Virus record (IMG/VR): IMGVR_UViG_3300043425_000453
Span: 1-34,073 of that record
Source: a virus
Length of the DNA: 34,073 bases
Reading direction: 5' to 3' (one strand)
Shown: one piece after another, positions 9,545-23,121 of the stretch
Layout of the letters: every line of letters starts with the position of its first letter
How positions within the stretch are numbered: the stretch's first letter is position 1
Made by a program: the position numbers and the translations under genes
The notes under the pieces: model-generated
Told to the model about the DNA's origin: nothing
Database searches by the model: none
The model's input: only the letters and a program-made list of their open reading frames with translations

Positions 9545-9574
9545 GAGTCTCCGTTTATGTGAGTCCACGTTTAT
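9545..9574. repeat. Two 14-base near-direct repeats at the end of the endonuclease gene
   Basis: The plus strand reads GAGTCTCCGTTTAT at 9545-9558 and GAGTCCACGTTTAT at 9561-9574, with 12 of 14 bases equal and 2 bases between. The left copy contains the endonuclease stop and the Shine-Dalgarno of the decoration gene; the right copy is the last coding part of the endonuclease. This could be a duplicated boundary left by the insertion. Confidence 0.6.
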
Positions 9575-10175
9575 TTAAGACGCGGAACTCTTGGTAAAAA
9601 CGCTCATGCAGTAACTGGCGCTTTTGCGTTGCTGGCGTTCCAGTGTATTGCGTATATCGCTGAAACCGCCTTCCAAGTTTTGCTTGAGTTCGTTTAGTCC
9701 GTATGTACGGCCAAACTGCATCTAAACAAGACAAGGCTTTGTTTGCGGCAACTCTCCAGTGCCACTTCTCTTTTGCGTTTCGACTTGGGTTCGCCTTCCC
9801 ATATGAGACGCTACCACCAAATCGCTGCTGCAACCACTGTATCATCCCGTGATCCGTATTGGTAAGCTCAACCATCAAGGTGTATTGACCTTGGCGAAAG
9901 GTTGTGCCTCCATGCAATCCACGGCTTGTAATCCGGATACAGCCCTCTCCGTCGATCAGCCCAGCCGCATAAGCTCTATCTACATCAGATAAATCTACAG
10001 GCTGGTTTTTTCTTTTTTGATCTTTAATTCGCCGAGAGGCTTTGAGAAGTGGTCCGTACTTCTCTTGGTACCGCTGCTGCATGTCTTTCTTTATGCACTT
10101 TTTGCAGCGGACTTTCGAATTACGGTAAAACTCCTGATCGCCACCAGACAAACCACAATACTTGCACGTTGGCAC
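9555..10175 (-). CDS. LAGLIDADG-type homing endonuclease with N-terminal zinc finger
   Basis: The protein has 206 residues. An N-terminal four-cysteine zinc finger uses C4, C7, C24 and C27. A basic linker (KASRRIKDQKRKN) follows, then a single clear LAGLIDADG motif, AAGLIDGEGCI at residues 70-80, and a fold segment with ELTNTDHGMIQWLQQRFGG. Homing endonucleases of this class cut a long site in the gene that lacks the insertion and so spread by repair. One motif suggests it acts as a dimer or has a degenerate second motif. The gene is free-standing between the capsid and decoration genes. It is markedly more AT-rich than both neighbours, with AAA, TTT and ATT codons, a sign of separate origin. 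Its stop lies in one of two 14-base near-repeats. Confidence 0.9.
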   Translation of the reverse strand: MPTCKYCGLSGGDQEFYRNSKVRCKKCIKKDMQQRYQEKYGPLLKASRRIKDQKRKNQPVDLSDVDRAYAAGLIDGEGCIRITSRGLHGGTTFRQGQYTLMVELTNTDHGMIQWLQQRFGGSVSYGKANPSRNAKEKWHWRVAANKALSCLDAVWPYIRTKRTQAKLGRRFQRYTQYTGTPATQKRQLLHERFYQEFRVLNKRGLT

Positions 10176-11562: not shown

Positions 11563-12639
11563 TTAGGGTCGGATGGACGAAAGGATTGAGCTTAACGCGC
11601 TATCCACGGCATCATCTACGGTCGTCGGTTTGGCAGCCGCTTTCGGTCGGTCTTGCGTCGTCACCGTCGAACCGACCGGCTTCAACTTCTGCCCGACCAT
11701 GCGCTTGGCCTTCTGCGCTTCGACCTGTGCCCGTTCCAGTTCAGCGTTGGCCTTCGCCGCCTGCGCTGGCTGAGTGCGTCGGACATGGGCCGCTTGCGCC
11801 CACAACGCGAGATCCTCGACGATGTACTTGCGGATGGCGTCATAGCGTGACGGGGAGACATAGGGTACCCCATTCGGGGCCACTTCCGCGTGCGCCTGTA
11901 AGGCCATCTCGATCTTGGCTTCCAGTTCCTCAACGGAGACGGTGGGCAGTGCATCCGTAATCATGCGGATGGCTGGCACGACTTCGTTGTCATAGAACCG
12001 CTCGCCACTCTGACTAATAGTCTGCATTTCGTGCTGCACACGCAAGTTCGCAATCTCTTGCTCCGCGCGTTCAGCCCGACGTTCGGGTGAGGTTTCCGCG
12101 AGGTAGGCTTCGTACACCCGTTCGCGGTACTCTTCGTCAGACAACAGGCGTTCCATCTGCGCTTCGCGCTCGGCCAACGCCTGCTCGTACTGCGTGATCT
12201 GCTGCTGGACTTCCGTCTGGAGCTTCTGTTCGCGCTCCTGATTGTAGACGCCCCACTGCGCCAGCTTGACGACCTGATCTAGCCGGTCCTGTCGGACCTT
12301 GCCGTTGGCCTTGTACTCGACGATCAGCGCCGGGACTTCGACTTCCCCATGCTCGTCGCGCAGGGTAAACTCGGTCGCCAGCCCTTCGCTGACGGACGGC
12401 ACGGCGACAAAGCCGTCAGGCAACACCACCTCAGACGGGGCTTCGTCCTCCGCCGTCTCGTCTACGGGCGCGTCGGCTTCTTCCTCGACGGGCGCATCAG
12501 CGACGTCCTCTGGCGCGTCCGGTTCCTCAGCGACGGGGGCCTCAGGGGTCGGCTCAGGGGGTGACACCTCGGGCGCTGGCATGGCGGCAGAGACCGCGTC
12601 ATTGATGGCGTCCGAGATGTCGACAACGGGAGCAGGCAT
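11563..12639 (-). CDS. Capsid scaffold protein
   Basis: The protein has 358 residues from the ATG at 12639, chosen because AGGAG lies 5 bases upstream; a GTG one codon earlier is less likely. The N-terminal 75 residues are Pro/Glu/Ala/Asp-rich and disordered. Residues about 130-205 are a long charged coiled coil (EREQKLQTEVQQQITQYEQ and following), and more helix follows to a basic C-terminus (KAKRMVGQKLKPV) of the kind that contacts the capsid shell. The charge pattern and the position between portal and capsid are typical of scaffolds. It should direct procapsid assembly and then leave. The ribosome-binding site overlaps the stop of the portal gene. Confidence 0.85.
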   Translation of the reverse strand: MPAPVVDISDAINDAVSAAMPAPEVSPPEPTPEAPVAEEPDAPEDVADAPVEEEADAPVDETAEDEAPSEVVLPDGFVAVPSVSEGLATEFTLRDEHGEVEVPALIVEYKANGKVRQDRLDQVVKLAQWGVYNQEREQKLQTEVQQQITQYEQALAEREAQMERLLSDEEYRERVYEAYLAETSPERRAERAEQEIANLRVQHEMQTISQSGERFYDNEVVPAIRMITDALPTVSVEELEAKIEMALQAHAEVAPNGVPYVSPSRYDAIRKYIVEDLALWAQAAHVRRTQPAQAAKANAELERAQVEAQKAKRMVGQKLKPVGSTVTTQDRPKAAAKPTTVDDAVDSALSSILSSIRP

Positions 12640-21380: not shown

Positions 21381-22472
21381 TTAGACCGGTTGAGCGCGGA
21401 CGGTTTTGCCAAGCGCCACGATTGACGCCTGTCCATGCACCACGTTCACCAACTCCACCCCGTAGACTCCCGGCTCCTCGTTGTGACTGACAATGGCAAA
21501 GCCATTCGTCCAGTTGGGGGCCGAGACATAGCTGGGGTTCAAGTCGCACATGCAGCCAATTTCGTATGCGCGACGGACCTGTTCTGGCCGAAGCCCCACG
21601 GCGGGGATGCGCTCCAAGCTACTGCCCATCCGGTGCGTATGGCTATGCATCACGCTGCTGTGCCACTTCTCGGCATGGCCACGGGCCGAATACGCGGCGT
21701 GTTTGCGGACCATATCGCCGTGAATGACGAGCAGTTCATGCGCGATCAGCGCATGGTCTTCCAGCCGGATCGGGCACCATTCAGGGTAGAACCATGTCTC
21801 GTAGTTTAGCAGTTCTTGCGCCTTGGGGTGGCCGTACAACACCGGCACCCGATCCGACAGGTAGCGATGCCAGCGGGACGCCGTGCCGTTGCCGCTGTGG
21901 TTGGCCTCGGTTTCCACAATGTCCATGTTCCACGCGGCACTGACGCTGCGGACCATGTGCAGAAAGGCATGGAACGCTGTGACTTCCTGCCGCAAATCCC
22001 ACGTATGGCGCTGGTCCTTGGGATACCGGCTGACGGCCAGCAGATCGACCGTATCGCCGTTCAGGATGAGACGCTGGGGGCGCAACTCCGCTATGGTTTC
22101 TAGCAGGATCGCAATAGTGTCCTTGCTTTCCATCGGGAAATGAAAATCCCCGGCGACCAGCGTGTAACCGTTGGGTTCTGTCCGGCGCTCAGGGATGGCC
22201 GGAGCGGGCAGCGCCACGGGGCGCAACTGTTCCAACCATTCGGGGATCTTGTCGTGGACCGTCTCGGCCCCCGGCTGCGGCATCGTGTCCAGCGCCTCCC
22301 AACTCACGCCGTCCCGAAAGCTACGGACGGAACCGATGCCTAACGACGCCTGCTTGTTGTGGATAGACGGCAATGACCGCTCCATGCGCTTGGCAATCTC
22401 CGCGATGGTGAGGCGGTCTCGGGTCAGCGCCTTAATCAGCGCAATGTCTTCGGCGGTCCACGGTCGGGCCAC
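21381..22472 (-). CDS. Metallophosphoesterase with N-terminal HTH domain
   Basis: The protein has 363 residues from a GTG at 22472, chosen because TAGGAG lies 5 bases upstream and overlaps the stop of the small gene before it. Residues 1-45 form a Myb/GcrA-like helix-turn-helix (WTAEDIALIKALTRDRLTIA). The calcineurin-like phosphoesterase motifs follow in order: D109 and H111 (AGDFHFP), GDTVD at 139-143, NH at 191-192, H251 (VIHGD), and HSHTHR at 276-281. All metal ligands appear present. Such enzymes cut phosphodiester or phosphomonoester bonds; the HTH suggests the substrate is DNA. It is placed between the tRNA and terL, in a packaging operon, so DNA end processing is possible. Confidence 0.88.
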   Translation of the reverse strand: MARPWTAEDIALIKALTRDRLTIAEIAKRMERSLPSIHNKQASLGIGSVRSFRDGVSWEALDTMPQPGAETVHDKIPEWLEQLRPVALPAPAIPERRTEPNGYTLVAGDFHFPMESKDTIAILLETIAELRPQRLILNGDTVDLLAVSRYPKDQRHTWDLRQEVTAFHAFLHMVRSVSAAWNMDIVETEANHSGNGTASRWHRYLSDRVPVLYGHPKAQELLNYETWFYPEWCPIRLEDHALIAHELLVIHGDMVRKHAAYSARGHAEKWHSSVMHSHTHRMGSSLERIPAVGLRPEQVRRAYEIGCMCDLNPSYVSAPNWTNGFAIVSHNEEPGVYGVELVNVVHGQASIVALGKTVRAQPV

Positions 22473-22479
22473 AACGCTC

Positions 22480-22644
22480 CTAGTCACGCACTGGCGGTGG
22501 GCCAGTATTGGGGACAGGCACAAACGCTTCGCCACACTTCGTACAATACGGCCCAGCCGGACGCCCCCACTCCCCGCACCACGCACAGCGATGCAGGGTT
22601 TCCGAGCGATATCGCCCGTCGTGGGAGGGATATACGGCCGTCAT
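22480..22644 (-). CDS. Small zinc ribbon protein starting right after a tRNA
   Basis: The protein has 54 residues. It carries two CxxC pairs, RCAWCGEWG and YCTKCGEAF, about 11 residues apart, a classic zinc ribbon, then a Pro-rich tail. Its ATG is only 2 bases after the last base of the tRNA (3 after the acceptor pair), so there is no room for a Shine-Dalgarno. If the tRNA 3' end is trimmed, the mRNA would be nearly leaderless. The stop overlaps the Shine-Dalgarno of the phosphoesterase gene (TAGGAG), which supports it being a real, coupled gene. Function unknown; zinc ribbons bind nucleic acid or protein. Confidence 0.75.
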   Translation of the reverse strand: MTAVYPSHDGRYRSETLHRCAWCGEWGRPAGPYCTKCGEAFVPVPNTGPPPVRD

Positions 22645-22646
22645 AT

Positions 22647-22717
22647 AGCGGGGGTGGGAATCGAACCCACGGCCTGCGGCGTATGAAGCCGCCGAGCTAC
22701 CACTGCTCCACCCCGCG
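22647..22717 (-). tRNA. tRNA with CAU anticodon, initiator-like
   Basis: The 71-base gene folds as a full cloverleaf: acceptor CGCGGGG, D arm GAGC/GCTC with a 7-base loop, anticodon stem GCGGC/GCCGC with loop TTCATAC, a 5-base variable loop AGGCC, and T arm GTGGG/CCCAC with loop TTCGATT. The first 15 bases, CGCGGGGTGGAGCAG, match those I recall for E. coli tRNA-fMet. The features G2:C71, C3:G70, G4:C69 and A11:U24 plus an unpaired C1/U72 are initiator traits. However, the anticodon stem ends in C31:G39 in place of the third initiator G:C pair. CCA is not encoded. It could be an initiator variant, elongator Met, or Ile (CAU). Confidence 0.9.
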
Positions 22718-22720
22718 CCT

Positions 22721-22744
22721 TGATCTCTAGATCCCTAGAGATCA
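22721..22744. repeat. Perfect 10-base inverted repeat just upstream of the tRNA
   Basis: TGATCTCTAG (22721-22730) and CTAGAGATCA (22735-22744) are separated by 4 bases. In minus-strand RNA it is a hairpin with a GGAT loop ending 3 bases before the tRNA 5' end. It might guide processing of the tRNA precursor, or serve as an operator. Confidence 0.7.
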
Positions 22745-23121
22745 TGTGCGCTGTGTTTACACAGTTCATAGTTCATGAACTCTATACATAATCCTGTGCG
22801 TTAGCACAGAACAAGCGTAGCGCGTTAGAGCTTACTCAGTTAACTCATAAACTCGTTAACTACAGTATATATGTTGACATGTACACATCACAATGTTGCT
22901 TTCGTTAAACGTTTACTGCGCTTTGCGTTAACTGATTGTAACAGGGACTTGACAGGTTTTTCCGCTAGTCAATAGTACCGCTGTTCCTATTTGCTGTGGT
23001 TCTGCGCTCCAAACCGCCAGATCGGGCAAGCCCGATGGTCTTAGAACCATGCCATAGGTCTAGAATGCGCGAGAGTGAGGGTTTTAGCGCAGATCCCCAT
23101 GCTATCCGACCCATTACAGCA
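22745..23121. other. AT-rich, palindrome-dense gap between terS and the tRNA
   Basis: No gene of either strand is convincing here. It holds perfect palindromes: CTGTGTTTACACAG (22751-22764), AGTTCATGAACT (22770-22781), CTGTGC with GCACAG around 4 bases (22794-22809), AAACGTTT (22907-22914), and GTTAAC three times (22839, 22855, about 22927). Further right, TGGTTCT (22997-23003) pairs with AGAACCA (23043-23049) around an inner hairpin ATCGGGCAAGCCCGAT (23021-23036). It is the best candidate in the window for a packaging site, operator cluster or structured RNA. Confidence 0.6.
22864..22893 (-). promoter_or_regulatory. Candidate promoter for the tRNA-terL operon
   Basis: On the minus strand TTGTGA (22888-22893) is followed after 18 bases by TATACT (22864-22869, 5 of 6 consensus). 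It would start transcription about 140 bases before the tRNA. The flanking GTTAAC copies could be operator sites. Confidence 0.4.

Follow-up and report, generated by a model that had tools for sequence, protein, structure and literature searches.

In animal mitochondria, excision of tRNAs frees leaderless or nearly leaderless mRNAs, an arrangement called tRNA punctuation. Leaderless mRNAs are also known from lambda and P2 genes and from mycobacterial genes, and in mycobacteria a leaderless RTG at the mRNA 5' end is both necessary and sufficient to start translation (PMC4633059). Here we analyzed a phage locus whose layout would work most like mitochondrial tRNA punctuation. As in mitochondria, the tRNA abuts a start codon, end processing would make the mRNA 5' end, and no Shine-Dalgarno (SD) sequence is present. 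Unlike in mitochondria, the locus belongs to a bacterial virus with SD-led neighboring genes, has a single tRNA junction, and depends on assumed bacterial RNase P and RNase Z activities and a predicted cleavage. The locus resembles the known leaderless mRNAs of bacteria and phages in that the start codon is predicted to lie at or beside the mRNA 5' end and lacks an SD. In those described in PMC4633059 transcription starts at the codon, whereas processing would be needed here, and one U precedes an AUG that the strict mycobacterial rule wants at +1. No earlier phage or bacterial case of tRNA punctuation was found in the open-licence literature.

The window, the whole stretch of DNA analyzed here, is a 34-kb virus record (34,073 nucleotides). 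Terminase, head and other genes identify it as a tailed phage, and the phage family carrying the junction is uncultured and apparently aquatic. ARAGORN and Rfam (RF00005, 63.4 bits) identify one tRNA gene on the minus strand, a tRNA-Met(CAU). The features of the locus are, from upstream to downstream:

22864 to 22893, minus strand: candidate promoter-like sequence TTGTGA-18-TATACT upstream of the tRNA, from the promoter scan.
22724 to 22745, minus strand: inverted repeat GATCTCTAG/CTAGAGATC immediately 5' of the tRNA, a possible leader hairpin, from the sequence and the precursor fold.
22646 to 22717, minus strand: initiator-class tRNA(CAU), CCA not encoded, from ARAGORN, Rfam, comparison with metZ, metT and ileX, and relatives.
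22645, minus strand: spacer base U74, directly 3' of the discriminator A73; T in 12 of 12 distinct family tRNAs.
22480 to 22644, minus strand: ZnR, a 54-residue zinc-ribbon protein (CxxC...CxxC) with an ATG start, no SD and the stop codon TAG at 22482-22480.
21381 to 22472, minus strand: metallophosphoesterase (MPE) with an N-terminal HTH-like segment and a GTG start, from phrog_221 (E 9e-26) and relatives.

The tRNA 3' end reads CCCCCGCTA, followed by T (22645) and the ATG at 22644-22642. Both genes thus share a strand, the gap between tRNA and start codon is no wider than two bases, and the single intervening base claimed in the earlier note is confirmed. That note reported the finding as 22644-22717, which adds the spacer and the A of the ATG to the tRNA itself. 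An RNase Z cut site is predicted between 22646 and 22645.

The promoter scan, which covered both strands of the region, gave three promoter-like sites, compared to 0.6 expected. Only part of the inverted repeat, an AGAG-like block, is seen again in relatives. The AT-rich intergenic region at 22720-23000 contains many palindromes (this repeat, GTTCATGAAC and CTGTG..CACAG) and a plus-strand TTGACA-16-AATAGT, and appears to be regulatory DNA or an origin that separates divergent gene blocks. Elsewhere in the window, an ORF among the major capsid-side genes (9555-10175) has a LIDGEGCI motif and resembles a LAGLIDADG homing endonuclease. A 689-residue ORF (86-2155) has long poly-glycine runs at its end and coding DNA rich in G/C homopolymers.

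Sequence comparison indicated that the tRNA is of the initiator class, as the earlier note had claimed. It is 80% identical to the E. coli initiator metZ, compared to 56% for elongator Met (metT) and 57% for Ile2 (ileX), and initiators are its top scorers among the CAU tRNAs in the fetched DNA. The first 15 bases, given in that note as those of E. coli tRNA-fMet, are identical to metZ at 15 of 15 positions. The C1xU72 mismatch, G2:C71, C3:G70, G4:C69, A11:U24 and A73 are all present as described; all relatives with a full tRNA have C:U or U:U at 1:72. A11:U24, G2:C71 and C3:G70 are named as formylation elements (PMC7949028). Among the three anticodon-stem G:C pairs of initiators, the tRNA has two, G29:C41 and G30:C40, and the third position is C31:G39 as previously noted. 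Paired 1:72, Y11:R24 and overall similarity to elongators are not seen; the percent identities and the 1:72 and 11:24 elements rule out elongator Met or Ile2. The anticodon loop UUCAUAC, which resembles that of some elongator Met tRNAs, is the sole elongator-like trait. The tRNA thus shares with cellular tRNA-fMet the 1x72 mismatch, A11:U24, two G:C pairs and CAU, and differs from it by the absence of the third G:C pair, C38 in place of A38, U74 and the lack of an encoded CCA. It probably supplies an fMet-type initiator during infection.

Two traits that had been considered odd are not specific to the phage. The short D loop is present (seven bases), but more than 100 cellular initiator tRNAs have it, and C1xU72 or U1xU72 and A73 are likewise frequent in cellular initiators (Chloroflexota, Bacteroidota, Bacillales). 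Both candidates for a phage oddity were rejected. A host call from tRNA similarity was rejected too, because the same D-arm type occurs in all three of these groups. The terL gene gave no host call, its relatives all being below 60% identity and spanning many hosts.

The junction is highly conserved. A junction-blind search with the ZnR protein or profile as query identified 12 related contigs, one of which (L012) begins inside the tRNA. The junction A73-T-ATG-AC is found in 12 of the 12, so comparison with related phages, proposed earlier as a check, returned the same arrangement. Because every contig from a search blind to the junction shares it, the one-base spacing appears to be beyond chance. 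In the alignment no position varies from the T arm through T74-A75, in contrast to divergent sequence in the 5' leader and at the N-terminus of ZnR. T74, present in all distinct family tRNAs, is found in only 5 of 111 cellular and 9 of 161 other viral initiator-type tRNAs (14/272 together), most of which have C74 (105/111 and 151/161, respectively). CCA is not encoded in any of the family tRNAs. According to PMC7479834, RNase Z cleaves just 3' of the discriminator and is inhibited by a C at that position. The B. subtilis enzyme is stimulated about 200-fold when a U lies within two bases (PMC10100781). With T74 and no CCA, the family therefore has what RNase Z prefers; these features would be permissive for tRNA 3' cleavage.

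Short junctions are also found outside the family. In L197 (1681-1754) and L336 (11725-11799), an initiator-type tRNA is followed by two bases and the ATG of a 197- and an 86-residue ORF, respectively. L258 and L232, with doubtful starts, and L228, with a doubtful ORF, were left out of the abutting cases. Chance is enough to explain the two junctions, 161 viral tRNAs having been screened.

The start of ZnR supports the claim that this gene has no ribosome site of its own. The SD duplex energy before its ATG is +0.3 kcal/mol, compared to about -3 to -8 kcal/mol for most other window genes; some others also lack a clear SD. No alternative in-frame ATG, GTG or TTG is found in ZnR before the first CxxC. 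A leaderless mRNA made from a promoter at the junction was considered and rejected as unlikely. The positions expected for a -10 box (-7 to -12 relative to the ATG) hold CCCC-rich sequence and nothing like such a box, and the promoter scan found none at the junction. The mRNA 5' end would thus have to arise by processing. The MPE start reads TAGGAG-CGTT-GTG (22470-22484), and the ZnR stop codon TAG lies inside its TAGGAG SD. This overlap suggests translational coupling between ZnR and MPE, and the two frames overlap further in other lineages.

We propose the following mechanism. The initiator-class tRNA and the ZnR and MPE genes would be on one transcript, and host RNase P would trim the tRNA 5' end. 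With U74 as a stimulus and no CCA in the way, RNase Z would cleave after A73. This one cut would both finish the tRNA, with CCA added later, and make the ZnR mRNA 5' end, 5'-P-UAUGAC. Ribosomes would initiate at the almost leaderless AUG without an SD, and translation of ZnR would continue into MPE through the SD overlapping its stop. The basis of this proposal is the layout and its conservation, the selection on ZnR described below, the invariant T74, and the absence of an SD and of a junction -10 box; from these we infer that the genes are co-transcribed, that the cut takes place, that initiation is leaderless and that translation is coupled to MPE. The earlier note had likewise suggested that trimming of the tRNA frees a nearly leaderless mRNA. 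Its initiator class, missing SD and near-leaderless geometry stand, and its reliance on the D loop and C1xU72 as unusual does not. The central step, a cut by RNase Z after A73 that completes the tRNA and releases an mRNA whose one-base leader carries a 5' phosphate, has in our estimate an even chance of being correct. Against it, other window genes mostly use SDs, and L197 and L336 carry C74 instead of T74. In addition, the one-base spacing was inherited within one phage family and so amounts to one event in evolution, and such spacing can arise by chance where genomes are compact.

The strongest alternative is that the abutment reflects genome compaction and plays no role in processing. ZnR would then be translated at a low level without an SD from unprocessed or 5'-trimmed RNA. 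The window genes other than ZnR without a clear SD are consistent with this, as are the two-base junctions in two unrelated viral contigs, which indicate that short gaps occur occasionally in phages. Base pairing of the AUG is also incomplete in the predicted fold of the precursor. However, in uncut RNA it would abut the folded acceptor stem, and the one-base gap, T74 and ATGAC have been kept across many diverged lineages. An SD took over where the start codon was lost, which also argues against compaction alone. We consider this explanation possible, on the doubtful side.

That replacement was found in a second search, with the MPE protein as query, which revealed further junction states. Five contigs (L034-L036, L039 and L040) read tRNA-TAGGAGACC(C/A)TTG-ATG, with a normal SD and a 13-base spacer. 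TATGAC of the one-base phages aligns with their TAGGAG, and their new ATG is about a dozen bases downstream. Two contigs have lost the ZnR gene, and several have no tRNA. In L045 (3907-3978) and L046 (1152-1223), a degenerate CAU tRNA that scores below the Rfam cut-off and has almost no D arm left is located two bases before the MPE ATG. Its acceptor stem is intact and its T arm is that of the window tRNA; it might have been retained to direct processing. One related phage, L013, has an additional tRNA-Pro(GGG) at 12220-12292.

In the MPE protein tree, the one-base state is on at least five branches, and the clade with the SD and gene-loss states (98/97 support) is nested among them; the basal forks are weak. 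For this reason the one-base junction is the simplest ancestral state of the group, within the limits of those weak forks. The nested clade reads as a later switch, in which the old start codon turned into an SD and initiation moved to a new ATG. Replacement of ATGAC by AGGAG together with gain of a new ATG suggests that the old ATG was a working start. Relatives with a normal SD spacer, named in the earlier note as counter-evidence, thus exist, but as a single nested clade.

A second alternative is that the tRNA serves chiefly as a nuclease-resistant initiator, with the junction a bystander. The unusual features of the phage tRNA are C38 and the non-G:C 31:39 pair. C38, found in the window loop, is present in 12 of 12 distinct family tRNAs, and their 31:39 pair is C:G, U:A, A:U or U:U, never G:C (0/12). 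G31:C39 and A38 are present in 118 of 118 unique cellular initiators, selected by a pattern that left positions 31, 38 and 39 free. According to PMC4105405, the bond that enteric VapC cuts in tRNA-fMet joins A38 to C39, and both bases flanking this bond differ from cellular fMet in all 12. Phage tRNAs tend to have anticodon-loop changes at tRNase sites, for which evasion of host nucleases was proposed (PMC10264068). The change at a known anticodon-nuclease site is similar here. In contrast, van den Berg 2023 (PMC10264068) notes that phages generally do not encode tRNA-fMet in cases where it is a VapC target, and here it is encoded with both A38/C39 bases changed.

Other observations weaken this explanation. 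In some bacteria, elongator Met tRNAs ordinarily have a UUCAUAC loop. Variants of the three G:C pairs are common in other phage initiators (31:39 varies in 26 of 141 and 29:41 is not G:C in 53), so relaxed constraint could explain the changes at C38 and 31:39. Position 38 varies in 18 of the 141. The third-pair change was therefore rejected as unique on its own. In the same viral set (L176-L361), 30:40 is G:C in 134 of 141, and some of these tRNAs could be the host's own, lying beside prophages. We regard a chiefly anti-nuclease tRNA as rather unlikely. As a lead and not a result, C38 and the altered 31:39 may make the phage tRNA VapC-resistant. Among initiators, which phages reportedly avoid encoding, it stands out as a clear candidate for resistance to toxins that cut at A38/C39.

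Translational coupling across the tRNA gene is very unlikely. A short frame through it is open and ends at ATGA in 8 of 8 one-base junctions examined, which would allow ribosomes to restart at ZnR. However, its sole shared start, a GTG, belongs to the D arm of the tRNA, and the GGAG that goes with it is badly spaced; tRNA function dictates both, and translation would need to unfold a stable tRNA.

That ZnR is not a gene can practically be dismissed: although the frame is short, lacks an SD and has weak Pfam zinc-ribbon matches, its pairwise dN/dS is mostly 0.15-0.6 (pooled pS 0.53, pN 0.24), which rejects a spurious ORF, and the alignment has an in-frame indel after a conserved Met-Thr and invariant cysteines. 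These values indicate purifying selection on ZnR.

Combining the RNase Z cut with the altered anticodon arm leads to a broader and tentative picture. The initiator tRNA would act as processing punctuation: cleavage by RNase Z would yield both a nuclease-resistant initiator and a leaderless mRNA fit for 70S initiation with this type of tRNA, tying phage expression to tRNA maturation. If the cut is real, the locus would provide an mRNA made by tRNA punctuation in a virus of bacteria, a case not found described in the literature searched. It would also be a testable case of translation controlled by tRNA maturation, for which the SD-bearing relatives are natural, ready-made controls for the abutting start.
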